Assembly (NCBI RefSeq): GCF_029360705.1
Contig: NZ_JARKMX010000008.1
Location: forward strand, 2,224,202 to 2,288,201
Direction: 5' to 3'
DNA length: 64,000 nt
Origin: Paraflavitalea pollutisoli
GTDB lineage: Bacteria > Bacteroidota > Bacteroidia > Chitinophagales > Chitinophagaceae
This document shows, piece by piece, positions 28,268 through 54,440 of this stretch (positions within the stretch are counted from its first letter, which is position 1; each line of letters starts with the position of its first letter). The notes under the pieces are model-generated. The model made no database searches. It saw only the letters and a list, made by a program, of their open reading frames with translations, and was not told the origin of the DNA. The position numbers and the translations under genes were made by a program.

Positions 28268-28606
28268 AGTATTGAATTAAGGTTACAATATATTGAACAC
28301 GTAAAGCTGAATATTGCTCGTTTTTATAAATACGGTAAAACGGGCAGAAATAGATCATTGTAGCGTATCAGTAGTCGTGGAGAGAGGAACATCATCCTTT
28401 TGGGCATTAAAATGCGCCAACTAGCATGAATACAGGCAAATTTAAGCCTTGATTACTGGCTTATCTGTCATTTAAACAAGTAAATTCGTGTCATAGAATC
28501 TACGACATCGGCTATCCGCTCCCCGCACTCATCACGCAATAGGACCAACGCTATTCAACACCTGTACTTTACCAGTACCACAACACTAACCTGACAAGTC
28601 AACAAC
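28268..28606. other. Divergent intergenic region carrying a shared promoter element
   Basis: 339 bp between the short AraC gene (-) and the response regulator (+). Its main content is the TAAATTCG box and inverted repeat at 28481-28505, shared with two kinase genes elsewhere in the window. Confidence 0.6.
28481..28505 (+). promoter_or_regulatory. Shared promoter element, copy 1 (response regulator gene)
   Basis: TAAATTCG (a form of the Bacteroidetes -7 box), two bases, then TCATAGAATCTACGA, a 15-bp inverted repeat (arms TCRTAGA, one central base). Over 27 bases it matches copy 3 at 24 and copy 2 at 22 positions without a gap. No TTTG-like -33 box is present at the usual distance. It lies 102-126 bp before the start codon. 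Confidence 0.75.
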
Positions 28607-29239
28607 ATGAAGCATTTCCTTTTAGCCGACGACCACAGTATTGTACGATCAGGTATCAAAAACTTGCTGCGCGAACAATTCATTCAGCCGGCCATCGATG
28701 AAGCCAGTGATGGTTATGAGATCGCAGAGCTGATCAAAAGCAACCACTACGACCTGGCTATACTCGACATCAACATGCCCGACACAGATTTTGCCTCCCT
28801 GATTCCCTGGATCAAAACGACCGATCCCGAGTGCCGAATGCTGATCTTTACAACATATCCCGCCCACACCTATGGTGTGCGCAGCCTGCAGTCCGGCGCC
28901 CACGGCTTCCTCAACAAATCGGCCACCAATGAACAGATCGTACAAGCCATCAACACGATTCTGGAAGGCAAAAAATACATTGGATCCGAGTTGGCGGAAA
29001 TCATGGTGAATCAATTGCAGGGCAACCAGGAGGCCAATCCCCTCAACCAATTATCTACCCGGGAAATGGAGATTGCCAGGCTTTTGCAGAAAGGAACCTC
29101 GTTACCCGAGATCGGCCGGCTATTGAACATCGGCTACAGCACCGTAGTGACCTATAAAAACCGCATATTCGACAAATTGCATGTGGAGAATCTTCTTTCA
29201 CTGGTAAAATTGCTGGAGGCCAATGGCTTCATAGACTAA
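28607..29239 (+). CDS. NarL/LuxR-type response regulator, orphan
   Basis: A 210-residue protein. The receiver domain (1-125) has the acidic pair D8-D9, phospho-acceptor D54 (LAILDINMP), T82/T83 and K104 (GFLNKSA). The LuxR HTH (about 147-205) reads LSTREMEIARLLQKGTSLPEIGRLLNIGYSTVVTYKNRIFDKLHV. No kinase gene is adjacent. The two propeller kinases at 37378 and 54097 lack receiver domains and have the same promoter element, so they are the best candidate partners (inference). Confidence 0.9.
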   Translation: MKHFLLADDHSIVRSGIKNLLREQFIQPAIDEASDGYEIAELIKSNHYDLAILDINMPDTDFASLIPWIKTTDPECRMLIFTTYPAHTYGVRSLQSGAHGFLNKSATNEQIVQAINTILEGKKYIGSELAEIMVNQLQGNQEANPLNQLSTREMEIARLLQKGTSLPEIGRLLNIGYSTVVTYKNRIFDKLHVENLLSLVKLLEANGFID

Positions 29240-29278
29240 CAGACTGCTATATTTATTGCATTGATTGGAGGCAACAAA

Positions 29279-29313
29279 GCCCGGCCAGTGTCTTATACGA
29301 AACACTACGGGCC
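29279..29313. repeat. Imperfect hairpin between the regulator and the HTH gene
   Basis: GCCCG...AGTGT and ACACT...CGGGC pair in two blocks around a 10-base loop. There is no T-run after it, so it is more likely an RNA structure or a remnant of a mobile-element end than a terminator. Confidence 0.4.
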
Positions 29314-29348
29314 TCGCAGCATGCACATACGCTAACAAAATCACCCAC

Positions 29349-29624
29349 ATGACAGCGCAGCGGCGATCTTTCACCAACGATGAAAAACTGCTCATAATCG
29401 CGCAGGCGCAGGAACTCGGCGTTGCACGAGTGCTACAGGAGTACAATCTTTCGTACAGTGTGTACGCACGCTGGAAGCTTCAACTGAAAGCCTCACACGC
29501 TACCCGCCACCTCGAAAAAATGCAGGCACGCATCGACGAACTGGAACAGGAAAATACCCGGCTGAAAGCCATCATCACCAACTTCCTGTTACAATCTGAA
29601 TCAACTAAGAAAGAAAATAAGTAG
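29349..29624 (+). CDS. Orphan IS3 OrfA-like HTH protein
   Basis: The ATG at 29349 (MTAQRRSFTNDEKLLII) is chosen over an upstream start at 29265 that would add residues unlike the family. The 91-residue protein has an N-terminal HTH resembling transposase OrfA (RRSFTNDEKLLIIAQAQELGVARVLQEYNLSYSVYARWKLQLK) and a leucine-zipper coiled coil (about 58-82, LEQENTRLKAIITN). That is the IS3/IS911 OrfA plan. No OrfB with a DDE domain follows; the next gene is convergent 9 bp away. Either an insertion-sequence remnant or a domesticated DNA-binding protein. Confidence 0.65.
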   Translation: MTAQRRSFTNDEKLLIIAQAQELGVARVLQEYNLSYSVYARWKLQLKASHATRHLEKMQARIDELEQENTRLKAIITNFLLQSESTKKENK

Positions 29625-29633
29625 AGCAGCTGG

Positions 29634-30854
29634 CTACAGGGATATATCCCATTGTAACCGGTAACGCCATTGGGTGGCGGGGATGCCACCCGTTTTATCG
29701 TAGTTATAATGGCTGCACATAAAGGTCAATTTATTCTTATGCCCTTTGAAGAACCAGTTGGCCGCCCCCGACCACTCTGTTTTGCGCGTAGCGTCAGCAG
29801 CACGATTTGGCCGGTAACCGGCATTGCGAAAAGCAAGCTCCAGCGGTTTAGGCCACCAGTCGAGTGACTGGTGAAAGAAATAGCCCAATTGCCAGTAGTA
29901 ACCATATAATTCATCGGTTTCATCACTATTCAGTTTATCAATGATCTCTTTCCAATGCCCCTCTGCCTGGCAACTGAACCCTTTGTACATAAAAGCGGTT
30001 TCTATATTGGCCTGGTTTACCCGGTATTGAGCAGGCTGACCATCTTCGTATCCTTCCAGCGAGCCCCCACCAGCCTGCGAAAAACGGGTATACGGACTTC
30101 GATTGGTCACGGCCGATATTGCCACCACACCCGCAGGTTCCTGATGGATCTCGAGATCACTGCCTTCAAAATCCAGGTAGCGACCAAAACAATTCCATTG
30201 AACGCGGCCGAAGTACATCAGGTGATTGTCATCGTTATCGGTATTGCCCCGGCCTGTACCAGTCGCCACAGCCAGCCAGTAATTAAAATCAGCCACGCCC
30301 CTTCCTTTAAGCCGGCCATATAGCTCAGCCCCTTGCTGCCTGTCAACAGTAAAAGGCCGGTTGATCACCGATCGGTCTATCATTTGTTGTTCGCCGCTGC
30401 TGATTCGACGCTCCCGGGAATATTCCACCTTCCATTGCCCTACCTGCAATTTCAGCCAGTCCCACTTCTCCACCTTAATGGTATAGTTGAGCAAATTCGA
30501 CTGGCTCAATTCATATTCCCAGTAATACTTCAGCCAGGGCACAAAAGCATGGCCACCTACTTTGAGACGTGCCCGGTTGATCTTAAATACCGGCTTTTTC
30601 TCACCACTGAAATCATCGAAGGTCACCGGATCCTCATCCTCCGGTGTAGCAAACCGGAATTGCAGCCGGCTTTGTATTTGAAGCAGAAACTTATTATCCG
30701 TCGTATTGAACTCAAAACCTTTCGAGCCATACTGCACCGTTGCCTTCGGTAGCGAGTCCATCTCCTTTTGCGCCAACGCCGATTGCCAGCCAACCGGTAT
30801 CACCAGGCAGCAACAAATTGTTCGGATCAACAAAGTATGGAACCTATCCATCAT
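29634..30854 (-). CDS. OprP/OprO-like porin
   Basis: The ATG at 30854 overlaps the stop of the upstream gene (ATGATG containing TGA), a coupled start; a longer frame from 30956 overlaps that gene and has no signal peptide at its front. The 406-residue product has a signal peptide (about 1-28, cleavage near SALAQ) and a porin O/P barrel: LLQIQSRLQFRFA, INRARLKVGGHAFVPWLKYYWEYELSQSNLL, LKLQVGQWKVEYSRERRISSGEQQ, closing with WRYRLQWDISL. Last gene of a four-gene minus-strand operon. Substrate unknown. Confidence 0.82.
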   Translation of the reverse strand: MMDRFHTLLIRTICCCLVIPVGWQSALAQKEMDSLPKATVQYGSKGFEFNTTDNKFLLQIQSRLQFRFATPEDEDPVTFDDFSGEKKPVFKINRARLKVGGHAFVPWLKYYWEYELSQSNLLNYTIKVEKWDWLKLQVGQWKVEYSRERRISSGEQQMIDRSVINRPFTVDRQQGAELYGRLKGRGVADFNYWLAVATGTGRGNTDNDDNHLMYFGRVQWNCFGRYLDFEGSDLEIHQEPAGVVAISAVTNRSPYTRFSQAGGGSLEGYEDGQPAQYRVNQANIETAFMYKGFSCQAEGHWKEIIDKLNSDETDELYGYYWQLGYFFHQSLDWWPKPLELAFRNAGYRPNRAADATRKTEWSGAANWFFKGHKNKLTFMCSHYNYDKTGGIPATQWRYRLQWDISL

Positions 30855-31426: not shown

Positions 31427-31438
31427 CAGGCAGCTGCT

Positions 31439-32470: not shown

Positions 32471-32490
32471 AAGTATGAATTTGAAGTCTT

Positions 32491-33915: not shown

Positions 33916-33958
33916 CTACCTGTAAGACACCTGAAGGAGCAGCTTTCCGCCACCCCCA

Positions 33959-33997: not shown

Positions 33998-34039
33998 TAC
34001 ACAGACAACAAATAGGAAATCGGATTTCCCCTATGCGGG

Positions 34040-35741: not shown

Positions 35742-37049
35742 TCAACCTGGTCGACGCGCCGACCTTTTCAGGACGAAAAGGCCGAAGGCACCTGATACAA
35801 TGGACGCCAGCAGGATCCCATATTTGGAGTAATCGATCAGCACGGAATCTTCGAAAGCCAGTTCCGTTACAAACAACGACATCGTAAAACCAACACCCGC
35901 CAGCAAAGCAACGCCTGCCATCTGTGGCCAGCGGGCACCGAGGGGTAGCGAGGAGAGTTTTAATTTGACCATGATCCAGGTAAAGAGAAATACGCCCGTG
36001 AATTTACCGATCACCAGACCGGCCATTACCCCTACGCTCACGGGGTTGGCGAGTTGTGAAAAGAAATCGGCTTTGATAGGGATCCCCGCGTTGCACAGCG
36101 CAAACAAAGGCATGATCACGAAAGTCACCCAGGGGTGTAAGGCATATTCAATTTTCTGTAAGGGTGTTTCTGCATCCAGGTTCACCTGTTTAGCTTCGGC
36201 AATCAGCAGCAATTGGTCGCGGGTGATCAGGGGACTATTCAACCGGTCAGCATGCCTAAATTGTTCGGTAAGCCGTAGCATACTGTCCATGTATTCGTCT
36301 TCATTGATCCGGGTACGTGCGGGGATCATAAAGGCAACCAGCACACCGGCGATCGTAGCGTGGATGCCGGAAAGGAGAAAACAGATCCAAATGGCCATAC
36401 CAATGACGCCATAAAATAACAGGCTGCGAACCCCCATCCGGTTGCCCCAAGCCAGCACCAACAGCAGGCCACTGCCGATCAATAAGGGCACCAGCGCGAT
36501 CTTAGCCGTATAAAAAAAAGCGATCACCAATACCGCACCAAGATCGTCTGCTACTGCCAGTGCCGATAGGAATACTTTAAGGGAAGCGGGAATGTGTTTA
36601 CCCGCCAGAGAGATGAGTGCCAGGGCAAACGCAATATCAGTGGCCATGGGTATTCCCCAGCCACCTTCAGAAGGCGTGCCCCGGTTGATCAGGAAATAGA
36701 TCAAGCCCGGCACCAGCATACCACCGAGTGCAGCTACGGCGGGCAAGGTGGCTTTCTGCGCCGTCGACAACTCGCCGGCCATGAATTCCCGCTTCAACTC
36801 CAATCCGATCAGAAAAAAGAAGATGGCCATCAGGCCGTCATTGACCCAGCTGTGCAAGGGTTGATCGAGCCGGTAGTCGTCAAAGCTGACCGCAAACCGC
36901 GTCTCCCAAAAATGGTGATAGCTGTCGCTCCAGGGTGAATTGGCCCAACCGATGGCCAATACGACGCAGGCAAACAGGACGATGGCCCCGGAGAATTCCT
37001 GGTGAATAAAACTGCTGACTGACCATTTACGGGGGGTGTTTGTTGCCAT
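35742..37049 (-). CDS. nhaA: Na+/H+ antiporter NhaA
   Basis: The ATG at 37049 (MATNTPRKW) is preferred; a frame from 37088 adds 13 residues unlike the family. The 435-residue protein has about 12 membrane helices and the key residues: MATDIAFALALISLAG (D138) and ADDLGAVLVIAFFY (D168 and D169, equal to the two essential Asp of E. coli NhaA), followed by CNAGIPI. It exports Na+ in exchange for protons at the inner membrane. It precedes the sulfatase on the same strand with 124 bp between. Confidence 0.93.
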   Translation of the reverse strand: MATNTPRKWSVSSFIHQEFSGAIVLFACVVLAIGWANSPWSDSYHHFWETRFAVSFDDYRLDQPLHSWVNDGLMAIFFFLIGLELKREFMAGELSTAQKATLPAVAALGGMLVPGLIYFLINRGTPSEGGWGIPMATDIAFALALISLAGKHIPASLKVFLSALAVADDLGAVLVIAFFYTAKIALVPLLIGSGLLLVLAWGNRMGVRSLLFYGVIGMAIWICFLLSGIHATIAGVLVAFMIPARTRINEDEYMDSMLRLTEQFRHADRLNSPLITRDQLLLIAEAKQVNLDAETPLQKIEYALHPWVTFVIMPLFALCNAGIPIKADFFSQLANPVSVGVMAGLVIGKFTGVFLFTWIMVKLKLSSLPLGARWPQMAGVALLAGVGFTMSLFVTELAFEDSVLIDYSKYGILLASIVSGAFGLFVLKRSARRPG

Positions 37050-37377
37050 AGCGAATACGTTGAGATCGCCGCAAAGATAGGTGGTCATACCCTTATTCGC
37101 GTGATCCCTTGATGCTGCCGGGCAAGAACACTACCGTACCCGCCTATATCCGGCAACACCCAGCTTTTTCAGTCTTAGACAATTCAAATCCAGGTCTACT
37201 ACCCCACCCGGACATCGATTCTGACAGGAATTATTAATTGGTAAACTGTGTTTATGATATAGAGCAGGTTGTCAGGTTATTTTGTCATCTAATCAACTAA
37301 ATTCGTGTCATAACAATTACGAAACCGACTATCCGACTCTCTGAGACCGTTACCCGACCGAACATAATCTTTAACCA
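37050..37377. other. Divergent intergenic region with the second shared promoter element
   Basis: 328 bp between nhaA (-) and the propeller kinase (+). The right half carries the TAAATTCG box and inverted repeat at 37298-37322. Nothing else stands out. Confidence 0.55.
37298..37322 (+). promoter_or_regulatory. Shared promoter element, copy 2 (propeller kinase 1)
   Basis: TAAATTCG, two bases, then TCATAACAATTACGA. Compared with copies 1 and 3, one outer base pair of the dyad has changed in both arms (G to A left, C to T right), so symmetry is kept (TCRTAA and TTAYGA). A further 17 bp upstream also match copy 1 at 13 positions. It lies 56-80 bp before the start codon. Confidence 0.75.
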
Positions 37378-40300
37378 TTGATCGTACGCCTCCGCCAACG
37401 TCACATCTGCCCCGTGCTGACAGCTATGCTGCTTGCCTTGTTTACCTGGCCCATGTATGGGCAGGATTCAAGCCGCTATTTTCTGCGCCACTACAACGCA
37501 GAAAACGGACTTCCGCAAAACAGCATCAAAGGCATGCAGCTCGACTCCAAAGGATATCTCTGGTTGCTTACTGAATCAGGCCTGCTGCGCTTTGATGGAC
37601 AGAACTTTCACACCTACGACAAATTACGCGACGGTAGTCGCTTCCGCCAACGGCCCTCCTCCCTTGGGCAATTGAACAACGATACCATTATTATGTACCG
37701 GGGCAAAGATCGCCACTACAGGCCGGCGGGCTACGATAGCCTCCTTCCCTACCCAGCTGCGCCAGACCGCGCTCCACACCTGTCGCAGGAAACCATCTAC
37801 AATGCCTGCTACCAGCTGGTACGCGACCGTAAACAACCCGACTGGATCACGCCTCACTGGCAAGACAACCTGCTGCGCTCCGCCAAAAGCTATGCCAGCA
37901 TCGGGAACTACTATTACTGGCTCAATCGTCACCACGAACTGGTGGTTTGCGATACGGCCCTGCATCATTTTCAACGAATAACGCTAACCGGACTTCCGCC
38001 GCTGACCGATAGTCAGTCTGTAGCGAGGATCATTTGGGACACCAAAAAACTATACCTGCAATGGGGAAATCATATTGGTTCGATAACCCTGGAAGGTGGT
38101 CAACCACAAACTACAGTCAGGGACATTAAATACATAGGTCGATTGGGCATGGTGACGGTGATCCAGGAAACACCCAATCCGCATATTTTCTTTATAGGTA
38201 CGCTGACCGATGGTTTTTATCAGTTCTCACGCAAAGAATTTACCACCAAGCTGTTTCCGGGTACACCCAACAACGTTTTTTATGCACAGGCACCCATAGG
38301 CAGCCATGATGTGGTAACAGAAAAGGGCATTCTCACCATCCATCAGCCCCCGGCTTTTGGCAACTTCCGCAGCAGAACCATTTTACACCTGCAGAATGGT
38401 GGCTACATCCTCACCAAATGGTACGACAGACCGCGCAACGGGCTCATCTTCTTCGATAGCAACTTTCGGCAAAATGGTTTCCTGCCACATCCCCGCTTAT
38501 CGACGACCTGTCTTTTTCAATCCAGTGATGGCCGCATATGGGTCGGGACGGAAGACCAATTCCTGGGCGAGTTGAAAGACAGCGCGATCAGTTGGAAACC
38601 TGCACCGTCACCCCAGGAGCATATCGCCGTACAAGCTATGCAGGAAATCACACCGCAACTGTTTTGGTTAGCCGGGCACGAAGGGCTTGCCCGATATGAT
38701 GTGGCCAGCAATCGCATAGGGCCAATACCGGCCTTGCGCAACAAGGGCATACGTACCATATACCTCGACTCGACAGGCATACTCTGGATCGGCACCTATG
38801 GCAATGGCTTTTATGCTTTGAAAAATGATCGGCTCACCAAATTCCCTACTGACCCCAGCGGCTTCATGGAGGGAGTCCATGCCTTTATGCAGGATGACCA
38901 TGGCTATACCTGGATGAGTACCAATAAAGGGCTATTCCAGGCCCGTACACAAGACCTGCGGGCGTACATGTCCGGCAGCCAGCAAGACATCTATTATCAC
39001 TACTACAATACAGACAATGGCTTTCTGACGAATGAGTTTAATGGCGGATGCTTTCCAGCCGCCATCCGGACCAACAGCGGCATTTTTTCCTTTCCTTCCA
39101 TGCGGGGGGTGGTTCAATTTGATCCGCTATCGATCAAACCTATCTTATCCGCCAATCAACTACACATAGACCAGGTATTGGCCGACTCCACCGTTTTACT
39201 ACTGGATGGCAAATCCATGGAAATTCCATCAGGCACTCACCTCCTGCAGTTCGCTGTCTCTTCGCCTTTTTATGGCAATCACCACAATCACGTCATCGAA
39301 TACCGGATGGCAGGCATGGACAACAGCTGGCGTAGATTACCTGCTGACGGACTGCTGAGTTTCGAAAGGATGAGTGCCGGAAAGTATTCCCTGCAATTTA
39401 GGAAACGCACTGGTTTCGGCAACAACGTGACCATGGCCATCCAGGAGTTTATCGTAAGGCCTGCTTTTTATGAAACAAGATGGTTTGTTGCATTACTGAC
39501 GCTAGCAGTGTTGATGTTGCTATGGTCAATTGTACGATACCGATTTCGCTTTATGAACCGCCAGCAAAAAAGACTCGAAGGCGAAGTCGCATTCCGCACC
39601 CGGGAACAGTTGAAGCTGATCAGCCAGCTGGAATCGACAGTGCAAAGCCTGGAGTTATCCAAAAATGAGTTGGCTCATTATAGCCGCCTACTGGAAATGC
39701 TGTCCATGACCATCACCCACGACCTGCAATCGCCGCTTCGATTCTTCGCAGATGTATCGGCAACTTTGCACGATCAATCGCTGCGCTCCAGCGATCAACC
39801 TGCGGCCGAATTAAGTGGTGAATTACTGAAGACCTCGCGCACGGTGCATCGTTTTTTACAGGAATTTGGTTATTGGATCAAAAGCTTGAATAAAGATTTT
39901 TCGGTACAACAGCAGGAAGTGCTGTTGTCTTCCCTGTTCAACGATGTCAACGAGTTTGTAGCTGAACAACTACGATCAAAAGGCAACACACTGCAAATAG
40001 TTAGCGCCCCGGCTGTATCCATCCGATCAGACAGGCAACTGTTACTCATCATCCTGCGCAACCTGGTCGATAATGCCAACAAACATACCCGGCAGGGGAT
40101 CATCACCCTACAGGTCGCGACGAATGGCGATACCGCATCAATAACCGTCAGTGATACAGGTCGTGGATTCAACCCAATAGCCCTTGCCCATGTGCGCAAG
40201 ATCACCCAACAGTCCTTCAACAGCCTGGGAACTGTAAAGGAGAACAGCGGTTATGGCTATTATTTTATTGGTGACTTTTGCAAACTGTTGAACATTGCCA

Positions 40301-40395
40301 TCACCATCGACAACCGGCCAACAGGAGGTGCCATCATCACACTGGGCAACTTACCGTTGGTTTCTGTCACGCAGGAATTACCAAAGTCCGCCTAG
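37378..40395 (+). CDS. Propeller-type sensor histidine kinase 1, without receiver domain
   Basis: Starts with TTG at 37378, which gives a full signal peptide (hydrophobic 12-24, cleavage near MYGQ); the next ATG at 37423 would cut into it. The 1005-residue protein has two-component-propeller repeats (RHYNAENGLPQNSIKGMQLDSKGYLWLLTESGLLRFDG first, more up to about 600), a Y_Y_Y beta domain (about 605-690), a membrane helix near 701-719, and HisKA/HATPase domains with H781 (THDLQSPLRF), an N box near 897-902 (DNANKHT) and DTGRGF. The usual GxGLGL lid reads NSGYGYYF. It senses an extracellular ligand. No response regulator follows. A close full-length relative is encoded at 51071. Confidence 0.9.
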   Translation: MIVRLRQRHICPVLTAMLLALFTWPMYGQDSSRYFLRHYNAENGLPQNSIKGMQLDSKGYLWLLTESGLLRFDGQNFHTYDKLRDGSRFRQRPSSLGQLNNDTIIMYRGKDRHYRPAGYDSLLPYPAAPDRAPHLSQETIYNACYQLVRDRKQPDWITPHWQDNLLRSAKSYASIGNYYYWLNRHHELVVCDTALHHFQRITLTGLPPLTDSQSVARIIWDTKKLYLQWGNHIGSITLEGGQPQTTVRDIKYIGRLGMVTVIQETPNPHIFFIGTLTDGFYQFSRKEFTTKLFPGTPNNVFYAQAPIGSHDVVTEKGILTIHQPPAFGNFRSRTILHLQNGGYILTKWYDRPRNGLIFFDSNFRQNGFLPHPRLSTTCLFQSSDGRIWVGTEDQFLGELKDSAISWKPAPSPQEHIAVQAMQEITPQLFWLAGHEGLARYDVASNRIGPIPALRNKGIRTIYLDSTGILWIGTYGNGFYALKNDRLTKFPTDPSGFMEGVHAFMQDDHGYTWMSTNKGLFQARTQDLRAYMSGSQQDIYYHYYNTDNGFLTNEFNGGCFPAAIRTNSGIFSFPSMRGVVQFDPLSIKPILSANQLHIDQVLADSTVLLLDGKSMEIPSGTHLLQFAVSSPFYGNHHNHVIEYRMAGMDNSWRRLPADGLLSFERMSAGKYSLQFRKRTGFGNNVTMAIQEFIVRPAFYETRWFVALLTLAVLMLLWSIVRYRFRFMNRQQKRLEGEVAFRTREQLKLISQLESTVQSLELSKNELAHYSRLLEMLSMTITHDLQSPLRFFADVSATLHDQSLRSSDQPAAELSGELLKTSRTVHRFLQEFGYWIKSLNKDFSVQQQEVLLSSLFNDVNEFVAEQLRSKGNTLQIVSAPAVSIRSDRQLLLIILRNLVDNANKHTRQGIITLQVATNGDTASITVSDTGRGFNPIALAHVRKITQQSFNSLGTVKENSGYGYYFIGDFCKLLNIAITIDNRPTGGAIITLGNLPLVSVTQELPKSA

Positions 40396-44468: not shown

Positions 44469-44475
44469 GGTACGC

Positions 44476-44518: not shown

Positions 44519-44541
44519 GCAATTAAACGACTGTTCACTTA

Positions 44542-46521
44542 TTATTGGTAACCGGGGTTTTGATAAGCGGCTTTCTCCTCGGCCGTCGCCTCCATACCAT
44601 CAATCTGTGCTTGTGGTACGGGACGCAGGTAATACTTAGGCTCGATGGTGCGGGTAAACGTTTGTGGGGTATGATTGCCATACGCTGCTCCACCGATCTG
44701 GTAAGAGCCTGCGATTTCACTCCACTTTTGCGTACGCACCAGGTCAAACCAACGATGACCTTCCCCAAAATACTCGCGCGACCGCTCCGCCAGGATATAG
44801 TTGATATCGATCGTCGCCGGTGTGGCCACCATCATTGCAGCACTGTTATCTGCCACCAGCGCGGCATTGTTCTTATTGGAGAATTTCCACTTGCCGGCAC
44901 GCGCACGGACCACATTGATCAGGTCACGCGCCGATTTGCCCGCGGTCGTCGTAGCACCCTTCACGGCTGCTTCGGCAGCGATCAGGTAAAACTCGGAGAA
45001 CTTGGCGATCTTGAAAGGACGGGTACTGGTCGCATTAGGCTGTCCCAGGCCGGTACCATTATCGGTCCGGTATACACCCATCTTCCACAAACCGGGGAAT
45101 ACAATGCGGCTGATACCACGGGGCGACACGACAAAGTCTGCACGCCCAGGTATCACCCCAGCGCCGATACCATTCGATGTTTTATTGGGGAAATTAGCGC
45201 CAGACGGATACGTAATGCTACCCGCCAGTGTTTCATCCTCCAGGAAGCTGAGGATCGGCTGCCCTGGAATAACAGGAATCTCATTCGCATTGTACAGCGT
45301 CGCATTGGTGGTGCCACCTTTGGGCCAGTTGCCGCGGAATACCGTACTGAACGTTCCATCATACCGGGAGTCCAGTGTTTTATCAGCAAAGGTATTGGTG
45401 ATCGCACCGATGGTAGGCGCCATACGCGTATAAGGACGACCCAACATTTGTGCCGCTTCACGCTGTACGGAGCTTACGCCTGAACCCGTACCGTCTGCAT
45501 TGGGTGCACTTCTGACCACCGTATAGTTAAAGGTCACCATCCATACCGCCGAGTTCCGGCCATTACCAGCCTCACTGTCGAAACAAGCCAGGCAGGCACC
45601 GTTATAAAACTCGCTTTCCTGTGTGTGGTCGGCAAACAGCAGCATTTCCTTGTTGCGGTCATTGCCCCCTACATGCAGATCATAGAACGTATTCTCCAGG
45701 CCATAAGGTCCGGGATTATCGATACCCTGTACAGATACATCATACGCTTTCTGGAAATACCAGGCAGCATCATGCCCATCGGGATCCGTTCTCGCTACTT
45801 GCGGATACGTTGGAATATTGTTCGGGTTCTGGATCCACCAGGCATACGTCAGGTAGGCCTTCGATAAATACAGCCTGGCTACGTTCTTCGTAACACCACC
45901 GGGTACCCGTGGCTGGTCAGGCAGTTCGGAGATCGCCTGCAGCAGATCAGGAAAGATGGCTTTGGTGTATACTTCCGGTACCGGGTTACGCGTCGATTTC
46001 CGGGAAGGTGCCGTATTGAACTTCAACGGGCCTGCACCAAGGTCCAAAGGCACGCCGCCAAAAGTCTGCACCAGCAGGAAATAATCGAAAGCCCGGAAGA
46101 ACCTGGCTTCGGCGATGAGTGAGGCCGGTATCGTCCCTACGGCGCCTGCATTCTCGATGATACCACTGGCCGTATTGATATTGGAGAAAGCCGTGCCCCA
46201 TAAGGCATCCGACCGGCTGCTGGCCGGCGTGATCTGACCAACACCACTCAGGTCCATATCGCGGAAATTGGCATCAGCGCTCTGAGCCCAGGTATATTCA
46301 TCCGTACCTGTTTCGAGGGTATTATAATAGTACGGCTGTCCGTAAATAAATCGCAAGTGCGCATACTGGGAGGTGATACCGCCCTGCACCCCTTTCTCGG
46401 TCTTGAAGAAACCGGGCTCGTAAAAACTGCGCGGCTGCTCCTCCAGGATCTTGTTGCATCCCGACAACAGGGTCAGCACGCCTGCCGATGCTATGATTGA
46501 CTTGATAAGCAGATGTTTCAT
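44542..46521 (-). CDS. susD: SusD/RagB-family glycan-binding lipoprotein
   Basis: A 659-residue protein with a lipoprotein signal (TLLSGCNKILEEQP, Cys 22) and the SusD fold pattern: FKTEKGVQGGITSQYAHLR at the N-terminus, RFFRAFDYFLLVQTFGGVPLDL, VARLYLSKAYLTYAWW (TPR helices), and the C-terminal RSREYFGEGHRWFDLVRTQKW. SusD caps the SusC pore on the cell surface and holds the glycan. It lies 12 bp after the susC stop. Which glycan is not visible, though a GH13 alpha-amylase gene is 8 kb away. Confidence 0.93.
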   Translation of the reverse strand: MKHLLIKSIIASAGVLTLLSGCNKILEEQPRSFYEPGFFKTEKGVQGGITSQYAHLRFIYGQPYYYNTLETGTDEYTWAQSADANFRDMDLSGVGQITPASSRSDALWGTAFSNINTASGIIENAGAVGTIPASLIAEARFFRAFDYFLLVQTFGGVPLDLGAGPLKFNTAPSRKSTRNPVPEVYTKAIFPDLLQAISELPDQPRVPGGVTKNVARLYLSKAYLTYAWWIQNPNNIPTYPQVARTDPDGHDAAWYFQKAYDVSVQGIDNPGPYGLENTFYDLHVGGNDRNKEMLLFADHTQESEFYNGACLACFDSEAGNGRNSAVWMVTFNYTVVRSAPNADGTGSGVSSVQREAAQMLGRPYTRMAPTIGAITNTFADKTLDSRYDGTFSTVFRGNWPKGGTTNATLYNANEIPVIPGQPILSFLEDETLAGSITYPSGANFPNKTSNGIGAGVIPGRADFVVSPRGISRIVFPGLWKMGVYRTDNGTGLGQPNATSTRPFKIAKFSEFYLIAAEAAVKGATTTAGKSARDLINVVRARAGKWKFSNKNNAALVADNSAAMMVATPATIDINYILAERSREYFGEGHRWFDLVRTQKWSEIAGSYQIGGAAYGNHTPQTFTRTIEPKYYLRPVPQAQIDGMEATAEEKAAYQNPGYQ

Positions 46522-46533
46522 ATACTGAATGAT

Positions 46534-49500
46534 TTAAAAGGTCAGGTTGACGCCAACAATATAGTTACGGGTAGCGGGAGTATTGTAGCCCACAGTCAGG
46601 ATACGCCGCAAATTGTTATTGAGGTTGACAGACGCATTCTCATTGCCATAGGAATTCGTTTCCGGATCCATACCCGATTCCTTGTGGAAAGGAGAGAACA
46701 GCACAAACGGATTTTGTGCCGTGGCGTACATCCGCAGTTTGATGGCCGAATTGCGGATCACACTCCTGCTGAAATCGTACCCCAGCGTAATGGTGCGCAC
46801 CTTCAGGAACGATCCATCGAAATAACTGAGCGTACTGCCGTACTTGGGGTTGTCGCTGCTGACGATACCTCCTGGCTTGGGATACTTGGCTCCTGTGTTT
46901 TCAGGCGTCCAGTAGTCAACCGCGATATTGTTGCGGCGCCCGCTCAACAGGTTGAGGTAACCGTTCGATCCGTGAATGGTACTGAAGAGAATGCCACCAC
47001 CGCGGAAGAAACCCACGATACCAAGATCGAAGCCTTTCCAACCAACGCGGGTATTGAAACCTCCCTGAAAATCGGGATCCACATCCATGATCTGCCGGTC
47101 GGCTGGTCCGATAGCACGTTCAGGAGTGCCGTCCGCTTTATTACCACCGGTATATTTTACTTTGATCATGCCCACATTGCCACCTGGCTCCAGCACATTC
47201 AGGTTGGCATCTCCCTGCTGCCACAGACCGATACGCTCGTAGTCGAAGATGGCGTTGATGTTATGTCCCACAAACCACCAGTTGGCTTCGTCGCGCGTTT
47301 GGCCAGAGGCCAACGAGGTCAGCTTGTTCCGGTTCATGTAAATATTGGCACCCAGGTCCCAGGTCCAGCCATTGGAACCATCGAGGATGGTACCGTTCAA
47401 AGCCAGCTCGAAACCCTTGTTTTCCGTCGAACCGATATTGGCCGTATAGCCGGTTACACCAGAAGTAGGTGGCAGGCTCAGCCCCAACAGGATATCTTCT
47501 GTTTTGGTAACGTAGTATTCGATCGTACCCGACAGCCTGTTCTTCAACAGGGAGAAGTCAAGCCCCACATTCACGGTTTTTGAAAACTCCCAGCCCAGGT
47601 CGGCATTGGGCAGTTGTGATACATAGTAGCCGGTAGAATACGTGGTTGGTCCAAAATTGTAAGGTCTTGTATCCAGGCGGCCCAGCGTAGCATAGGGGGC
47701 GATGGCCTGGTTGGACGTCTGACCAAAACCAGCCCGCAATTTCAGGCTATTGATCACCGGAACATTCTGCATAAACGACTCGTTGGAGATATTCCAACCT
47801 ACCGACACGGCAGGATAGGTATGCCATTTATGACCGGGCGCCAGTCTCGAAGAGGCGTCGGAACGAACGGTAGCGGAGATCATGTACCGGTTATCGTAAG
47901 AATACATCAGTCGTCCCATGGCCGACATCAGCCCCCACAATTGATAATCCTGGTTGGCAGGATCAACAACGATCTGCCCCGCAGCCTGTCCGATATTGTA
48001 GAATTGAAAAGCGTCGGCGGGTATATCCCGGGCCGACATATTCGAGCGGGTGTATTTACTCTGTTCTACAGAATACAAAGCCACCGCATTGAAAGTATGC
48101 TTACCGAAGGACCGGTCGAAGGTCAACAGGTTTTCTAACGTCCAATGCAGCGTGTTGCGATTGTCGACCGAAGCAGCAGAAGCCGTCGTGGGATTCAGTG
48201 CATCCCCTACCCCCTGACCGGTATAGGCACCGTTGTTGGTTTGAATATAATCTAAGCCCAGGTTCACCCGGTATTTCAGTCCGTCGAGGAAGGGCGCTTT
48301 CACTTCGCCATACACCGCATTATAGGTAGCAAAACCACGGGTCTCATTCACCCACTGACTGTTATCACGTAAGTTCCGGACAACATCTTTGGTGTACACA
48401 TACTGGTTATCGGCCGCCATCCGTATACCGCGACGCAAAGTACCGTCGTCATTGTATGGAGAAGAGATCGGTGTCATGCTCAGGGTATTGTACAAACCCA
48501 CCTGGTTACCCTCACTTTCGTTGAAGTTGGAATTGGAAGTAAAGCCCACCCGAAACAGTTTACCTACCTGTTGATCGATCGACCCGCGCAACGCATACCG
48601 TTTGTATTGCTGCGTGGGGATCACCCCCTGGTTGAGGTAGTAGCCACCGCCAAAATTATAATTGCCCGTCTCCGAGCCACCAGAAAGGCTGATGTTGTGG
48701 TCGGTGACCATACCGGTCTGGTAAAACAGGTCCTGCCAGTCCGTATCTATATTATCGGCTTCGTCTTGTCCGTTGGGGTATTGGTTCGCCGCCTTCCGCA
48801 GGGCAACAAACTCGGGACCATTCATCATCGGGTATTTCGCAAATACTTTTTGCGCACCCACATAACCGCTGTAATTGATGCGTGGCTTACGGTTGCGGCC
48901 GCCCTTTTCGGTGGTAACGAGGATAACGCCATTAGCACCCCGCGATCCATAGATGGCAGTAGCAGAGGCATCCTTCAATACATCGACACTTTTGATATCG
49001 TTGGGATTGATATCGGCCAGGGAACCAATGAAGGGAATACCATCCAGCACGATCAGCGGATTGTTGTCGGCACTCAGCGAACGCGTACCGCGGATGCGGA
49101 TCTGCATCGTAGCGCCTGGCCTGGTAGAAGTCTGAGCGATATCGACCCCCGCCAATCTTCCCTGCAGCGCCTGGGAGATATTGGGCGCCGGCACTTCGCG
49201 CATTTTTTCGCCGCCAATGGTAGCCACCGAGCCGGTTACCGCCTCTTTACGTTGCGTACCGTAGCCCACGACCACCACCTCACCCAGGTCGCCTGCCGAC
49301 GCAGTCAACACCACGTCAACGGTACTGGCCGTACCAACCTTCACTTCCTTGGTGGTAAAACCGACATTGGAGACGACGAGCGTAGCGCCCGCAGGTACCG
49401 CCAGCGTAAAAGAGCCGTCATCGGCGGTATTGGTTCCCGTACTGGAACCTTTAATGGTCACAGAGGCGCCGGGGACCGGCTCTCCTTTGTTGCTGGTCAC

Positions 49501-49638
49501 CTTTCCCTTCACCGTTTGCTGCGCAACGGCAGCGGTGATACAGGCCAATAAAAAGAATAACATCATTGCAGTCGTTTTTGTCCGCAACAGACCGGGCAGG
49601 ACAAATCCAAACTGACTTGGACTTTTTTTCATATTCAT
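46534..49638 (-). CDS. susC: SusC/RagA-family TonB-linked outer-membrane transporter
   Basis: The ATG at 49638 (MNMKKSPSQFGF) is chosen; a frame from 49878 adds a long unrelated stretch. In the 1034-residue protein, a signal peptide (about 20-40) is followed by a carboxypeptidase-regulatory-like domain (QQTVKGKVTSNKGEPVPGAS to FTTKEVKVG), a plug (VVVVGYGTQRKEAVTGSVATI; SIKVDVLKDASATAIYGSRGANGVI-like block) and the 22-stranded barrel ending VGVNLTF. It imports a glycan or similar ligand with TonB energy. First gene of the susCD operon, divergent from the second LacI gene. Confidence 0.94.
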   Translation of the reverse strand: MNMKKSPSQFGFVLPGLLRTKTTAMMLFFLLACITAAVAQQTVKGKVTSNKGEPVPGASVTIKGSSTGTNTADDGSFTLAVPAGATLVVSNVGFTTKEVKVGTASTVDVVLTASAGDLGEVVVVGYGTQRKEAVTGSVATIGGEKMREVPAPNISQALQGRLAGVDIAQTSTRPGATMQIRIRGTRSLSADNNPLIVLDGIPFIGSLADINPNDIKSVDVLKDASATAIYGSRGANGVILVTTEKGGRNRKPRINYSGYVGAQKVFAKYPMMNGPEFVALRKAANQYPNGQDEADNIDTDWQDLFYQTGMVTDHNISLSGGSETGNYNFGGGYYLNQGVIPTQQYKRYALRGSIDQQVGKLFRVGFTSNSNFNESEGNQVGLYNTLSMTPISSPYNDDGTLRRGIRMAADNQYVYTKDVVRNLRDNSQWVNETRGFATYNAVYGEVKAPFLDGLKYRVNLGLDYIQTNNGAYTGQGVGDALNPTTASAASVDNRNTLHWTLENLLTFDRSFGKHTFNAVALYSVEQSKYTRSNMSARDIPADAFQFYNIGQAAGQIVVDPANQDYQLWGLMSAMGRLMYSYDNRYMISATVRSDASSRLAPGHKWHTYPAVSVGWNISNESFMQNVPVINSLKLRAGFGQTSNQAIAPYATLGRLDTRPYNFGPTTYSTGYYVSQLPNADLGWEFSKTVNVGLDFSLLKNRLSGTIEYYVTKTEDILLGLSLPPTSGVTGYTANIGSTENKGFELALNGTILDGSNGWTWDLGANIYMNRNKLTSLASGQTRDEANWWFVGHNINAIFDYERIGLWQQGDANLNVLEPGGNVGMIKVKYTGGNKADGTPERAIGPADRQIMDVDPDFQGGFNTRVGWKGFDLGIVGFFRGGGILFSTIHGSNGYLNLLSGRRNNIAVDYWTPENTGAKYPKPGGIVSSDNPKYGSTLSYFDGSFLKVRTITLGYDFSRSVIRNSAIKLRMYATAQNPFVLFSPFHKESGMDPETNSYGNENASVNLNNNLRRILTVGYNTPATRNYIVGVNLTF

Positions 49639-50036
49639 CGTTTTGGTAGTAGAAGATGTGTTGGGGAAACCGGTCTTACCGGATGCAGCTCGCCGCCGAG
49701 CGGCGTTGGGCCCATGGCGGTCAGCCCGGGCCCACCATAAAAAAGTAGCGGATATAAGAAAAGCGTGAAAGAAGATCAGGCTGTTCCATACGGCATTATT
49801 AAGAAGTGAGCAATCGTTTGGCAGCACCTTGTACAGCGACTGCCAGAACGAATATAGGTAAAAAATACAAAATAGCAACCGATTACATTTTTTGTTGCAT
49901 AAATCCTATATTTATAAAGCCACAGTGGCCGAAGGCTGCACATAAGAATTTGATAAAACTCAATCATATAGCCGTAAATGGCATAGAAATGGGGCCTTTC
50001 CCGGCTATTGAAATAAATCACAACCGATTGCAAAAT
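49639..50036. other. Divergent susC-LacI control region
   Basis: About 400 bp. The 9-mer CAACCGATT occurs twice in the same orientation (49876-49884 and 50021-50029), the second just ahead of the LacI ATG. The half nearer susC is GC-rich with a GCCGCCGAGCGGCG-like stem near 49692, the half nearer LacI is AT-rich. Operators for one or both LacI proteins are expected here but no full palindrome was identified. Confidence 0.5.
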
Positions 50037-51074
50037 ATGGAGCAAAAGAGAGAGGTTACCATCCATGATATTGCCCGGAGATTGAAAGTTTCATCTGCCA
50101 CGGTGAGCCGGGCATTGCGCGACAATCCGGCCATCACCCGGCAAACACGGGCCCGCGTACAGGAGGCTGCCCGGCAGTTGGGGTACCGGCACAATATATT
50201 CGCCAGCAGCCTGCGCAAACAACAAACCAATACGATCGGCATCATCGTTCACGAGCTCAACAGCCATTTCATCACGTCCGTATTGACCGGCATTGAAAAG
50301 GTCACGTCTGCAGCAGGCTACGACCTGATCATCGCCCATTCGGCAGAAAGCTATAAAAAGGAAGTCGCCAACGTCACCAATCTTTTTCATAAACGGGTCG
50401 ACGGACTGATCGCCTCCCTGGCCTGCGACACCAACAGGCTTGACCACTACGCTTTATTTGAAGACAAGGGAATTCCGGTCGTTTTTTTCGACCGGGTAGA
50501 AGAAACCGTTGGCAGTACCCGCGTGATCATCGACAATTATACCTGTGGTTACCTGGCTACGCAACACCTGATCGAGCAGGGTTGCCGGCGCATTGCGCTG
50601 GTGACGGCCAACCTGGAACGCAATGTCTACCAGGAGCGCTTCCAGGGCTACCAGGCGGCACTGACCGCCAACGGACTATTATTGGAGGAGAAACTCGTCC
50701 TGATCAGGGGACTACAAGAATCATGCGGCCGGGAGGCCGCAGCAGCCATCCTGCAGATGGCGCCCCTGCCCGATGGCGTATTCATCACCAATGATTTCAC
50801 CGCATCGGTATGTCTGCAACATTTTAAACAACATGGCTTGCGCATACCGGCAGACATAGCCATTGTTGGTTTCAACAATGATGTAATTGGCCGGCTGGTA
50901 GAGCCAGCCCTGACCACCATCGATTATTGTGGAGAAGAAATGGGCGAACAGGCCGCCCGCAGCCTCATCGAACATCTTCAAGCGCCAGCCGTCAATGTAC
51001 CCGCCACCACCATCTCTATCCGGTCACAACTCATAGTGCGTGAATCTTCGTTAAAGAAACCGCACGCCTCCTAA
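50037..51074 (+). CDS. LacI-family transcriptional regulator 2
   Basis: The ATG at 50037 (MEQKREVTIHDIARRL) places the HTH at the N-terminus as in all LacI proteins; the frame opening at 49806 is non-coding leader. The 345-residue protein shows HTH (VTIHDIARRLKVSSATVSRALRDNPAITRQTRARVQ), hinge (IFASSLRKQQTNTIGIIV) and ligand domain (VVFFDRVEETVGSTRVIIDNY, DGVFITNDFTASV). It is divergent from susC by 399 bp and is the closest candidate for its local regulator. Its stop shares bases with that of the kinase on the other strand. Confidence 0.92.
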   Translation: MEQKREVTIHDIARRLKVSSATVSRALRDNPAITRQTRARVQEAARQLGYRHNIFASSLRKQQTNTIGIIVHELNSHFITSVLTGIEKVTSAAGYDLIIAHSAESYKKEVANVTNLFHKRVDGLIASLACDTNRLDHYALFEDKGIPVVFFDRVEETVGSTRVIIDNYTCGYLATQHLIEQGCRRIALVTANLERNVYQERFQGYQAALTANGLLLEEKLVLIRGLQESCGREAAAAILQMAPLPDGVFITNDFTASVCLQHFKQHGLRIPADIAIVGFNNDVIGRLVEPALTTIDYCGEEMGEQAARSLIEHLQAPAVNVPATTISIRSQLIVRESSLKKPHAS

Positions 51075-54000
51075 TCGGCTTGTCGAAAAATAATAAAGTT
51101 CGAGAGGGTAATTACAGCACCATTACCTGGGAGATTGGCTACTATAATCTCAACATTCAATAGCTTACAAAAAGCGCTGATAAAATAATAGCCATATCCG
51201 GAATTGCCTTTGATGGCACTAAGGCTGTTAAAGGGATCATGCGTGATCTGCTTCACCCGCTCAAGCGTGTGAGTTTGGAAGCCCCTGCCCGTATCGCTTA
51301 TCACAATATGTGCAAGAGCGCCTTCGGTTATTACCGCTAGCTTGATTTGTCCGTTGCTGGTATACTTATTGGCATTATCGATCAGATTGCGCAACACGAT
51401 CTGCAGCAACTGCCGGTCAGTTTCAATGCATAAGTCTAAAGGGATATCAAAACTGAACACATTGCCCTTTTGCTTCATCACATCGCCCGCAAAATTGCCA
51501 AGTTGATTAAAAAGTTTACTCAGCACAACAGACTCCTTATTGATCGAAAACTCACTGCCCTGGCTCTTGATCCAATATCCAAATTCCTGCACAAACCGAT
51601 GTATGGCGTCAGATCCATGAAGCAATTCCCGACTCAGTTCCGCCGCACGCGGATTATCGTTCTGTAAAGCATTTTCGTGCAAACTGCCGGCAACATCCGT
51701 TAAAAAACGTAGCGGCGATTGCAGGTCATGAGAGATGGTCATCGACATCATCTCGAGTAGTCTGCTATGGCGCGCCAGTTCATTCTTCGACCTTTGAAGA
51801 TGGTCTACTGTGGCCCCTAACTCTTCGATCAGCTTTTCTTGTTCTTTGGTACGATAAACGATCTCTTGTTCCAACCGCACTTGCTGACGGGCGAGGTACC
51901 GGTAGCGTAGCCGCATGGCTAACCAGATGCCTGCCAACAATAATAAAGCAATGAACAACTTAAACCATATCTTTTCATAGTAAACAGGCTGCAGGGTAAA
52001 AGGGATAGTCTTTATCGACATACGATGACCAAACCCATTCATTTTCCGCACAACCAGCGCATACTCACCATGCGGTAGCCGGTCGAAATTAAGCCGTCCA
52101 TCCGCAGGCATCGTATTCCACGTACTGTCTGCCCCCTGTAGCTGGTATTCTATAAAATGATTATTAGGATGTCCGAAGTAGGGAGAAGAAATGGCAAAAC
52201 GGATATGAACACTACCGGCAGGAAATTTTATTGTTTGCCCCTTCCACGGATAGATAAGCGAATCAGCAGCCACCTGGTCAATGTAGATGTCATTGGTTGA
52301 AAAAGCCGGTTCGATCTTTAAGGGATCAAATTGAACAAGGCCATTCATGGAGGGGAAGGAAAACAAGCCTCCACTTGTTCTGATCGCCGACGGCCAACAT
52401 CCTCCATTGAATTCGTTTGTCAGAAAACCATCGGTTTTATCGTAATAATGATAATAAATAGACTTTGTACCGCCACGTATAAAATCTACCAGGTCGCTCA
52501 TGCGGGCCTGAAACAAGCCTTTATTAGTACTCATCCAGCAATAACCGTGATCATCTTCCATAAAGGCATGCACGCGGGCCAGGTAGCGGTTTGGATCTTG
52601 TGGCAATTTAACGATCTGGTTACCGGTTAACGCAAACAACCCACTTCCGTAGGTACCGATCCAAAGTATTCCGCGGCGGTCCAGGTAAAGGTGACGAATC
52701 CCTTTTCCCTTAAAATATGGTACCAGGGTGAACGCTCCCGTATTAACATTTAACCTGGCCAGGCCTCTGTAACTCGCAACCCAAAACATACCCCCACCAA
52801 TCTCCTGCATCGCTTCTATTAAAGGGAATTGTTCTTTATCCGGAGACTGCATCCATCTAATCTGCCCATTTTTCAGCTCTCCCAAAAACTGTGATTCAGC
52901 ACCTACCCACACACGCCCATCTGCGCTTTGAAAAAAACAGTTCACGGCTGTAATGGGTTCATGCTGAAAACCCATTCGTCGAAAATTGCTATCGAAATAC
53001 ACGAGACCGTTGACAGAATTGTGCAACCATTGGTTCAGTATATAACTGCCATCCTTTAAGCGCAGGATCGTTCTGTTCCGGAAGCTGTCGAGCTTAATAT
53101 ACCTATCATCCCCAAACACCCCCTTCTCCGTCACTACCCCGTTTTCGCCAAACGGCGCCTGGGCGTAGTAGACATTATCCAAAGCGCCCTTAATGGTTTT
53201 TGTGATGAATATCTTTTTTGTAAATTGATACAAGCCGTCCGCCAGCGTTCCGATGAAAAACGATTGCTTACCAGGAAGCTCTTTAATCCGCGTTACGATA
53301 CCTATTTTACCAACATGCCATTTATCCTTAACAATGGCTTCCAGGCCGTCGTTGGATATCACAATAATACAGATGAATTCACCCCATTGGACATATATTT
53401 TGTCGGAACTCCAGATCATCTTAGCCATGGCCATGCTATCTTTGAGCACCGGAAATCCCGTCATCTTTAGACGCCGAAATTGCAGCAAGGCGGTATCCGC
53501 TGCAACCAATTCCCGTTCACTGTTAAACCAATAATATCTGTTATTGACCAGCCCCAAACCGATGGCAGCGCGTAACGTACTACTTTTCGATGCTGGCATG
53601 ATCCAGGATGGTTCCTTCTTCTGCCGCACTTTCATAAAACAGCGAGCATACACCATAGGCTCCTGCAGCCCGGCTCCGCTCGTGAATTTATTGCCGGTTG
53701 AAGCAGACACTGTATAGGGTATCAGGCTGTCAAGTGCTGCCGGGCGGTAAAAACGATTGTGACTTTCCAACATTACGATGGTATCAGGTTCCTGCAGAAA
53801 TAGCCCTCCTGGCCGTCGCCGCATTGAATTTCCGTCGGGCAGCCGGTAGTAGTCCTGGAAGTGTTGACCGTCGAATCGTAAAAGGCCCGCTTCTGTGATC
53901 AGCCACAGATAGCCTTTCGGGTCGAGTTGCATATCCTTTACACTGTTTTGAGGAAGCCCATTTTCCGCATTGAAATGCCGGACATGATAACTGGGTGTAT

Positions 54001-54097
54001 CCTGTGCAAAGGATGTCATCGCAATGCAACAAAACGGCAGCATACAGAAAAAGGCAAAAGCCTTATTATAAAGCAAACAATTAAGAAATGACTTCAA
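51071..54097 (-). CDS. Propeller-type sensor histidine kinase 2, without receiver domain
   Basis: A 1008-residue relative of the kinase at 37378, similar over the whole length. Signal peptide (about 12-31, cleavage near TSFAQ), propeller repeats from RHFNAENGLPQNSVKDMQLDPKGYLWLITEAGLLRFDG on, a Y_Y_Y domain, a membrane helix near 712-730, HisKA with H790 (SHDLQSPLRF), N box (DNANKYT), DTGRGF, and again NSGYGYYF in place of the GxGLGL lid. Unlike hybrid two-component systems of glycan loci it ends after the HATPase, with no receiver or AraC HTH. It lies between LacI 2 and the amylase and overlaps LacI 2 by 4 bp at the stops. Confidence 0.9.
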   Translation of the reverse strand: MKSFLNCLLYNKAFAFFCMLPFCCIAMTSFAQDTPSYHVRHFNAENGLPQNSVKDMQLDPKGYLWLITEAGLLRFDGQHFQDYYRLPDGNSMRRRPGGLFLQEPDTIVMLESHNRFYRPAALDSLIPYTVSASTGNKFTSGAGLQEPMVYARCFMKVRQKKEPSWIMPASKSSTLRAAIGLGLVNNRYYWFNSERELVAADTALLQFRRLKMTGFPVLKDSMAMAKMIWSSDKIYVQWGEFICIIVISNDGLEAIVKDKWHVGKIGIVTRIKELPGKQSFFIGTLADGLYQFTKKIFITKTIKGALDNVYYAQAPFGENGVVTEKGVFGDDRYIKLDSFRNRTILRLKDGSYILNQWLHNSVNGLVYFDSNFRRMGFQHEPITAVNCFFQSADGRVWVGAESQFLGELKNGQIRWMQSPDKEQFPLIEAMQEIGGGMFWVASYRGLARLNVNTGAFTLVPYFKGKGIRHLYLDRRGILWIGTYGSGLFALTGNQIVKLPQDPNRYLARVHAFMEDDHGYCWMSTNKGLFQARMSDLVDFIRGGTKSIYYHYYDKTDGFLTNEFNGGCWPSAIRTSGGLFSFPSMNGLVQFDPLKIEPAFSTNDIYIDQVAADSLIYPWKGQTIKFPAGSVHIRFAISSPYFGHPNNHFIEYQLQGADSTWNTMPADGRLNFDRLPHGEYALVVRKMNGFGHRMSIKTIPFTLQPVYYEKIWFKLFIALLLLAGIWLAMRLRYRYLARQQVRLEQEIVYRTKEQEKLIEELGATVDHLQRSKNELARHSRLLEMMSMTISHDLQSPLRFLTDVAGSLHENALQNDNPRAAELSRELLHGSDAIHRFVQEFGYWIKSQGSEFSINKESVVLSKLFNQLGNFAGDVMKQKGNVFSFDIPLDLCIETDRQLLQIVLRNLIDNANKYTSNGQIKLAVITEGALAHIVISDTGRGFQTHTLERVKQITHDPFNSLSAIKGNSGYGYYFISAFCKLLNVEIIVANLPGNGAVITLSNFIIFRQAD

Positions 54098-54440
54098 TGA
54101 TCAACCATTTATGGGTGTTACCAGTACTTTTCATTGAAGGCACGGAGGGAAACAGCTTGTCGTAGAATCTATGAGACTAATTTAAATGATTTGATGGGAG
54201 TAAGGCCGAAACAGTTAATAAAAACTTATATATCTTGTATAAACTTAAACAGCTGACTACAAAGTTTATAGCCTGTAGAAAAAGTCCTGCAAGTCATATG
54301 GCCCCCAGCAGCCCTTGCGCCGAAATACCCAAAATGGGATAAAAAAACCACAATATTTGCACATACGGGCCTGATTGCCGTTCAGGAACAGCTCATCGAC
54401 AGGATTCGCAAATTGCTATATACCGCCTAAAATCTCCCCC
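54098..54440. other. Divergent kinase-amylase intergenic region
   Basis: 343 bp. It holds the third copy of the shared promoter element (54160-54184), facing the kinase. The AT-rich stretch 54215-54260 contains repeated TATA(T/A)A motifs. The amylase promoter should lie nearer 54400 but no full -7 box was seen. Confidence 0.5.
54160..54184 (-). promoter_or_regulatory. Shared promoter element, copy 3 (propeller kinase 2)
   Basis: Read on the minus strand: TAAATTAG, two bases, then TCATAGATTCTACGA, a 15-bp inverted repeat identical to copy 1 but for the central base. It lies 63-87 bp before the kinase start codon, and the spacing between box and dyad is the same as in the other two copies. Confidence 0.75.

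Follow-up and report, generated by a model that had tools for sequence, protein, structure and literature searches.

A putative promoter-operator shared by a NarL-type response regulator gene and two propeller sensor kinase genes in Paraflavitalea pollutisoli

Why would a response regulator gene and two sensor kinase genes, each in its own unit, carry the same sequence ahead of their start codons? This question is raised by a 64-kb stretch of the Paraflavitalea pollutisoli genome (the window), in which a preliminary description had recognized a 25-nt element, TAAATT(C/A)G followed after 2 bases by a dyad, upstream of a NarL-type response regulator (RR) and of two paralogous propeller sensor kinases (K1 and K2). 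On re-reading the window, we found the sequences and coordinates of the three copies as given there:

28481-28505 (+), 25-nt element upstream of RR
37298-37322 (+), 25-nt element upstream of K1
54160-54184 (-), 25-nt element upstream of K2

When up to 3 mismatches were allowed, TAAATTNGNNTCATANNNNNTACGA had three matches in the window, each with 0 mismatches, while shuffled windows gave a mean of 0.07 matches and none of 100 shuffles reached three. A genome-wide search (8,759,071 bases, 8.76 Mb, in 16 contigs) for hundreds of unrelated copies was negative: the exact pattern occurred in three places, all in the window, and the reversed-pattern control in none. With up to 3 mismatches, the genome held 8 additional matches compared to 17 for the reversed control, so a larger family of elements is unsupported. 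The bare dyad TCRTARNNNYTAYGA occurred at 10 sites (control, 12), of which 3 were the RR, K1, and K2 copies; among the seven others, five fell within open frames longer than 200 codons, and the remaining two adjoined genes unlike RR, K1, or K2. The element is therefore private to the three genes in its own genome. A larger regulon was considered and rejected, as neither the full pattern with up to 3 mismatches nor the bare dyad showed an excess. A weight matrix built from the three copies scored them at 56 to 61, whereas no other site exceeded 6.7 in the window, 10.1 in 400 kb of this genome, or 12.9 in nine loci of relatives. An Rfam scan of the window for an RNA leader returned no family at the gathering score.

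The similarity extends well beyond the 25-nt element, and we delimited a longer block as follows:

28466..28518 (+), 53-nt shared promoter block, RR copy, 43/53 identical to K1 without gaps
37283..37335 (+), 53-nt shared promoter block, K1 copy
54147..54199 (-), shared promoter block, K2 copy; first 42 nt identical at 32/42 to RR and 29/42 to K1

All three copies lie in divergent intergenic regions and point towards the RR, K1, or K2 gene, with 141 (RR), 95 (K1), and 102 (K2) nt from the start of the block to the start codon. The genes had been called unlinked, which is too strong: other genes on both strands lie between them, yet all three are within 26 kb. Ungapped identities were 43/53 nt for RR-K1, 37/50 for RR-K2, and 22/27 for K1-K2. 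The earlier counts of 24/27 (first and third copies) and 22/27 (first and second) are right if the two bases past the 25-nt element are included. The element as first described is therefore real, while its extent was understated, since 27 of the first 42 columns are identical in all three copies (T..CAT..AA.CA..TAAATT.GT.TCATA.....TACGA.A).

To place these similarities against background, we scored 3000 pairs drawn at random from 236 gene-upstream stretches of 300 nt (coding or noncoding) in 400 kb of this genome. The RR-K1, RR-K2, and K1-K2 pairs scored 33, 24, and 17, respectively, compared to a maximum of 20 among the random pairs, two of which reached 17 or more. The best score of the RR, K1, or K2 block against the 236 other upstream stretches was 15. 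In an all-pairs comparison within the window, one unrelated pair among 589 scored 18, above K1-K2. The RR-K1 and RR-K2 similarities are thus far outside the null distribution; K1-K2 on its own is modest and does not stand out in this way. If the copies arose from one another, these similarities cannot be counted as independent. The unrelated pair that scored 18 consists of the upstream regions of 43365(-) and 49878(-).

The dyad had been cited as a sign of selection by a dimeric protein, and we examined its symmetry in each copy. Written with the half-site TGTCRTAGA, it spans 19 bp:

28489..28507 (+), imperfect 19-bp dyad TGTCATAGAATCTACGACA, RR copy, 8/9 pairs
37306..37324 (+), dyad, K1 copy, 6/9 pairs, symmetry not above chance
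54158..54176 (-), dyad, K2 copy, 7/9 pairs
28466..28477 (+), possible upstream half-site TGTCATTTAAAC, directly repeating the left dyad arm at a distance of 23 bp

Of 20,000 random 53-mers, 59 had a best arm score of 8 or more, 930 of 7 or more, and 5,915 of 6 or more; taken alone, the RR copy is the sole palindrome of note. None of the copies pairs at 3/13, where each has A opposite C. The compensated base pair reported for the K1 copy does exist, with 6/10 changed from G-C to A-T, but the adjacent pair 7/9 is changed from A-T to C/A and symmetry is lost there. Two adjacent pairs changed and just one of them stayed symmetrical, so the selection argument built on the compensation carries little weight. 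At the position of TGTCATTTAAAC, 9/12 (RR), 7/12 (K1), and 8/12 (K2) bases were identical to the left dyad arm.

A case for selection comes from the age of the kinase pair. K1 and K2 were identical at 40 of 136 fourfold-degenerate sites (29%), compared to 25% expected at random. With silent sites this near saturation, intergenic similarity of the same age needs either selection or later copying, and the element has probably been kept by selection beyond the neutral expectation.

We asked which class of promoter the block might represent. Bacteroidota have a class of -7 box, TAnnTTTG (PMC9723704), which in Flavobacterium psychrophilum lies at -12 to -5 (PMC9723704). From block start to start codon, each unit has a single TAnnTTnG, and we tentatively assigned these as follows:

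28481..28488 (+), TAAATTCG, putative -7-box-like sequence, RR
37298..37305 (+), TAAATTCG, putative -7-box-like sequence, K1
54177..54184 (-), TAAATTAG, putative -7-box-like sequence, K2

TAnnTTTG itself was absent between block and start codon of all three genes. Across 155 upstream regions of this genome, window included, TAnnTTTG occurred 31 times compared to 10.3 in shuffles, a threefold excess, and 14 times on the opposite strand; TAnnTTCG (13) and TAnnTTAG (7) were not enriched over the 10.1 of shuffles for each. TAAATT(C/A)G may be a degenerate -7 box. A -33 element is also part of the Bacteroidota sigma-A promoter. By inspection, none was common to the three copies, and a spaced TTG before TAnnTTTG was not enriched in the sense orientation in this genome (4 sense, 6 antisense, 1.1 shuffled). 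If the -12 to -5 placement is valid here, the dyad would lie across +1.

The proteins encoded downstream have the domains of a two-component system:

28607..29239 (+), RR, NarL-type response regulator, 210 aa (PF00072, 2.2e-22; PF00196, 1.1e-10)
37378..40395 (+), K1, propeller sensor kinase, 1005 aa (PF07494, PF02518; H781)
51071..54097 (-), K2, propeller sensor kinase, 1008 aa, paralogue of K1 (H790)

RR has a receiver and a GerE/LuxR helix-turn-helix domain, both above the Pfam cut-off, and D54 (the acceptor), T82, and K104 were located by inspection. At E <= 1e-30, RR matched only itself in its own genome (144/144 candidates scored). In agreement with the preliminary description, no receiver was detected in the two propeller kinases: at E <= 0.001, Pfam returned only Reg_prop and HATPase_c for both (PF02518 above its cut-off), with no receiver domain and no separate HisKA match. 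HDLQSPLRF, the N-box, and the G boxes were located by inspection in both. K1 and K2 are identical at 485 of 972 residues overall and at 45 of the 70 around the phospho-acceptor His, with HDLQSPLRF unchanged, and they were the sole kinase matches at E <= 1e-100 among the best 21 of 172 candidates in their own genome. K2 matched the propeller sensors of PDB entries 3v9f (3e-22) and 4a2l (2.6e-20), and its gene lies near a SusC/SusD locus. There, LacI-type regulator genes (43434-44468 and 49806-51074) flank the SusC/SusD pair (44542-49878), and K2 converges on the second of them.

Each copy of the block also faces a divergent gene on its other side:

27791..28267 (-), AraC-type helix-turn-helix protein, divergent from RR (PF12833)
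35742..37088 (-), NhaA-type Na+/H+ antiporter, divergent from K1 (PF06965, 5e-149)
54375..55925 (+), alpha-amylase, divergent from K2 (PF00128, 1.1e-24)

By Pfam, these neighbors are unrelated to each other. The AraC-type protein could share the RR control region, and the NhaA antiporter and alpha-amylase are possible outputs; since the element occurs nowhere else in the genome, these three genes are the first candidates for outputs.

We then looked to relatives for gene order. K2 was searched against 344 genomes of the family with the best 2 candidates per genome scored, and at least 6 genomes had matches at E <= 1e-130. For the regulator, the best 9 candidates per genome were scored, and at least 6 genomes had matches at E <= 1e-48; G000, G353, G030, and G309 were among the matching genomes of both searches. 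In the comparison of regulator neighborhoods, from which G152 and G333 were left out, G353, G030, and G309 had a kinase followed directly by a regulator on the same strand, G001 and G004 had the order regulator then kinase, and G002 had a regulator followed by two kinases. G005 and G127 each had a convergent kinase and regulator, as did G030 in a second pair that is distant; the regulator of G003 had no full-length kinase of the family nearby (a 537-aa frame gave a weak match, 4.4e-6). In trees of 12 kinases and 11 regulators, drawn with midpoint rooting, K1 and K2 grouped with the proteins of G353, G030, and G309 (100/98) and RR did likewise (96/96), so the trees agree. Because the same families are mostly adjacent in relatives and the trees agree, the genes in the window would be scattered partners, and the data support placing RR and K1/K2 in partner families. 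A kinase-regulator operon is likely the ancestral form, since the three nearest relatives found (G353, G030, G309) have that arrangement.

Two details of these loci were noted along the way. The one-strand run of G002 (L062, 5039-12053), a regulator followed by two tandem propeller kinases, is a second case of one regulator with two sensors in the family. The frames of the convergent kinases and regulators overlap at their 3' ends, by 4 nt at L064 7754-11403, 38 nt at L077 7007-10613, and 74 nt at L076 1919-5528.

The convergent pairs, which have separate promoters, allowed us to ask if common promoter elements are general in the family. No common element was detected in the three pairs of G005, G127, and G030 (scores of 10, 9, and 9, with 95% of shuffles at 12), and sharing such an element is therefore not a general feature of the family. 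With up to 2 mismatches, the element had 54 matches in 58 other genomes compared to 100 for the reversed control. With up to 1 mismatch, it had 21 matches (1 exact) in 20 of 393 other family genomes compared to 27 for the control; these totals are hand sums of tables. For 47 of these matches (29 from the first search and 18 from the second), the surrounding 1.5 kb was examined at E <= 1e-3, and no relative of the three genes was detected. The suggested check thus did not show conservation in related genomes, with no examined match near genes of these types, and the element, known from one genome only, has no phylogenetic footprint. In four other genomes of the same genus, the best RR matches were only 40-43% identical. 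Upstream of these regulators (L061, L062, L063, L065) is a conserved block, TAGAAAAA..ACTA, with ATAAAT and a -7-like TATTTTTG near the ATG; it differs from the RR/K1/K2 element and is a probable operator of another member of the regulator family. A kinase-alignment search of contigs from the named genomes yielded a single locus, from a Mesonia MAG, with a match of 23%.

Several explanations other than an autoregulated circuit were weighed. Short repeats are common in large genomes, and such copies might stem from a small mobile or repetitive element, or the similarity might be due to chance. This is disfavored and very improbable, as there are exactly three copies, all directed towards partner genes, whose start codons follow the start of the block by 141, 95, and 102 nt; 0 of 100 shuffles and, for RR-K1 and RR-K2, 0 of 3000 random pairs did as well, and the 47 near-match loci elsewhere showed no relatives of the three genes within 1.5 kb. 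The blocks might instead be relics of duplication, copied from one ancestral promoter by operon duplication and loss or by promoter capture, with similarity that mostly reflects descent and no current common control. The longest block is indeed common to RR and K1 (43/53), and RR is closer to the K1 and K2 copies than these are to each other, as would be seen if the RR copy were the one closest to the ancestor, or if the copying took place after the kinase had duplicated. We consider a relic improbable, because equally old neutral remnants should be gone when kinase synonymous sites are near saturation, and the divergent neighbors of the three genes are mutually unrelated. Nor were remnants of lost partners detected: 12 kinases compared with 27500-30000 around RR gave a best E-value of 0.052, and 11 regulators queried against the regions behind K1 and K2 gave 0.015, both taken as chance.

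The strongest competitor is a functional common promoter read by an alternative sigma factor or by another regulator, such as the AraC-type protein (27791), which would co-express the three genes without autoregulation by RR. Conservation does include the -7-like box and its upstream side, beyond the dyad; the enriched box of this genome is of another form than TAAATT(C/A)G, and no TAnnTTTG lies from block to start codon in any of the three units. Against this, a sigma factor or global regulator with three sites in 8.76 Mb, all on one circuit, would be unusual, and two-component genes commonly regulate themselves, as stated for the operon form (PMC2820520). We regard a promoter of this kind as a possible but rather unlikely explanation.

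We therefore favor, with moderate confidence, a reading in which selection has kept one promoter-operator in front of each of the three transcription units that make up one two-component circuit. The ancestor probably had a kinase-regulator operon under one promoter. In the lineage of P. pollutisoli, kinase and regulator would have separated and the kinase doubled, in an order of events that we infer, with each unit keeping the promoter. RR most likely binds TGTCRTAGA-type half-sites and so would control its own gene, K1, and K2 together. That the binder is the 28607 product is fairly probable, because autoregulation is common in two-component systems and the element has no other target in the genome. 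A dyad across +1, if the box is at -12 to -5, would by default imply negative autoregulation. Activation is also possible, since DigR of Myxococcus xanthus occupies +1 to +24 of a promoter whose high activity depends on DigR. RR and K1/K2 would be cognate, with phosphotransfer between them predicted from the partner families. The single autoregulated circuit with two sensors that had been proposed is thus partly supported, by an element that appears selected and by the partner families, while the compensated-pair argument for it carries little weight.

The individual parts of the arrangement are all of known kinds: autoregulation in a two-component system, two sensors for one regulator, dispersed genes, and an operator in common. 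In the DosR/DevR system of Mycobacterium, one sensor gene lies apart from the regulator. That system likewise combines one NarL-type regulator (PMC3029386) with two closely related sensor kinases, DosS and DosT (PMC4082495), but here RR, K1, and K2 are all separate units with a common promoter sequence. The regulon induced by DevR/DosR comprises about 48 genes (PMC4973870), compared to three sites here, all on the circuit, and the sensors differ, as DosS contains haem (PMC4082495) and K1/K2 have propellers. SgmT and DigR of M. xanthus are a kinase and a regulator encoded apart in one pathway (PMC3509222). The palindrome bound by DigR spans +1 to +24 of a target promoter, and fibA needs DigR for high activity (PMC3509222); this geometry resembles the dyad position proposed here, while the palindrome sequence differs. 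SgmT is one hybrid kinase with GAF and GGDEF domains, and DigR targets lie outside the circuit, unlike here; the main text of PMC3509222 contains neither 'autoregul' nor 'sgmT promoter'.

The hybrid two-component systems of Bacteroidota also use Reg_prop propeller sensors, to which the K2 matches 3v9f and 4a2l belong. These hybrids combine kinase and receiver in one protein, and a DNA-binding domain is usually fused as well, whereas RR is separate here and K1/K2 have no receiver match. K1 and K2 were accordingly rejected as hybrids of this type, having Reg_prop and HATPase_c only and no fused receiver (Pfam, E <= 0.001). A literature search for propeller kinases with LuxR/NarL-type regulators in Bacteroidota yielded no papers. 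Titles and abstract openings on Chitinophaga and autoregulated systems, orphan pairs, two-component evolution, and operon fission described no such arrangement.

A further, more speculative possibility is that the circuit is closed, with strong RR sites only on RR, K1, and K2 and with the divergent AraC-type, NhaA, and alpha-amylase genes as its outputs, driven from those very control regions; we regard this as doubtful. If true, the element would keep the stoichiometry of three scattered parts after operon break-up, a caught example of break-up with promoter inheritance.

Pairing scattered ('orphan') kinases and regulators is hard, and orphans make up 57% of two-component genes in Caulobacter crescentus and 55% in M. 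xanthus (PMC3509222). Where a private promoter element marks the partners, they can be paired from genome sequence alone; in this case, the gene neighborhoods of relatives back the pairing independently. The regulatory link is well supported; what is unusual is the privacy of the element together with this independent support. Collectively, these findings suggest a once-continuous signaling unit that has been split up and is still switched as one, a ready case of a signaling operon that was divided without losing co-regulation.
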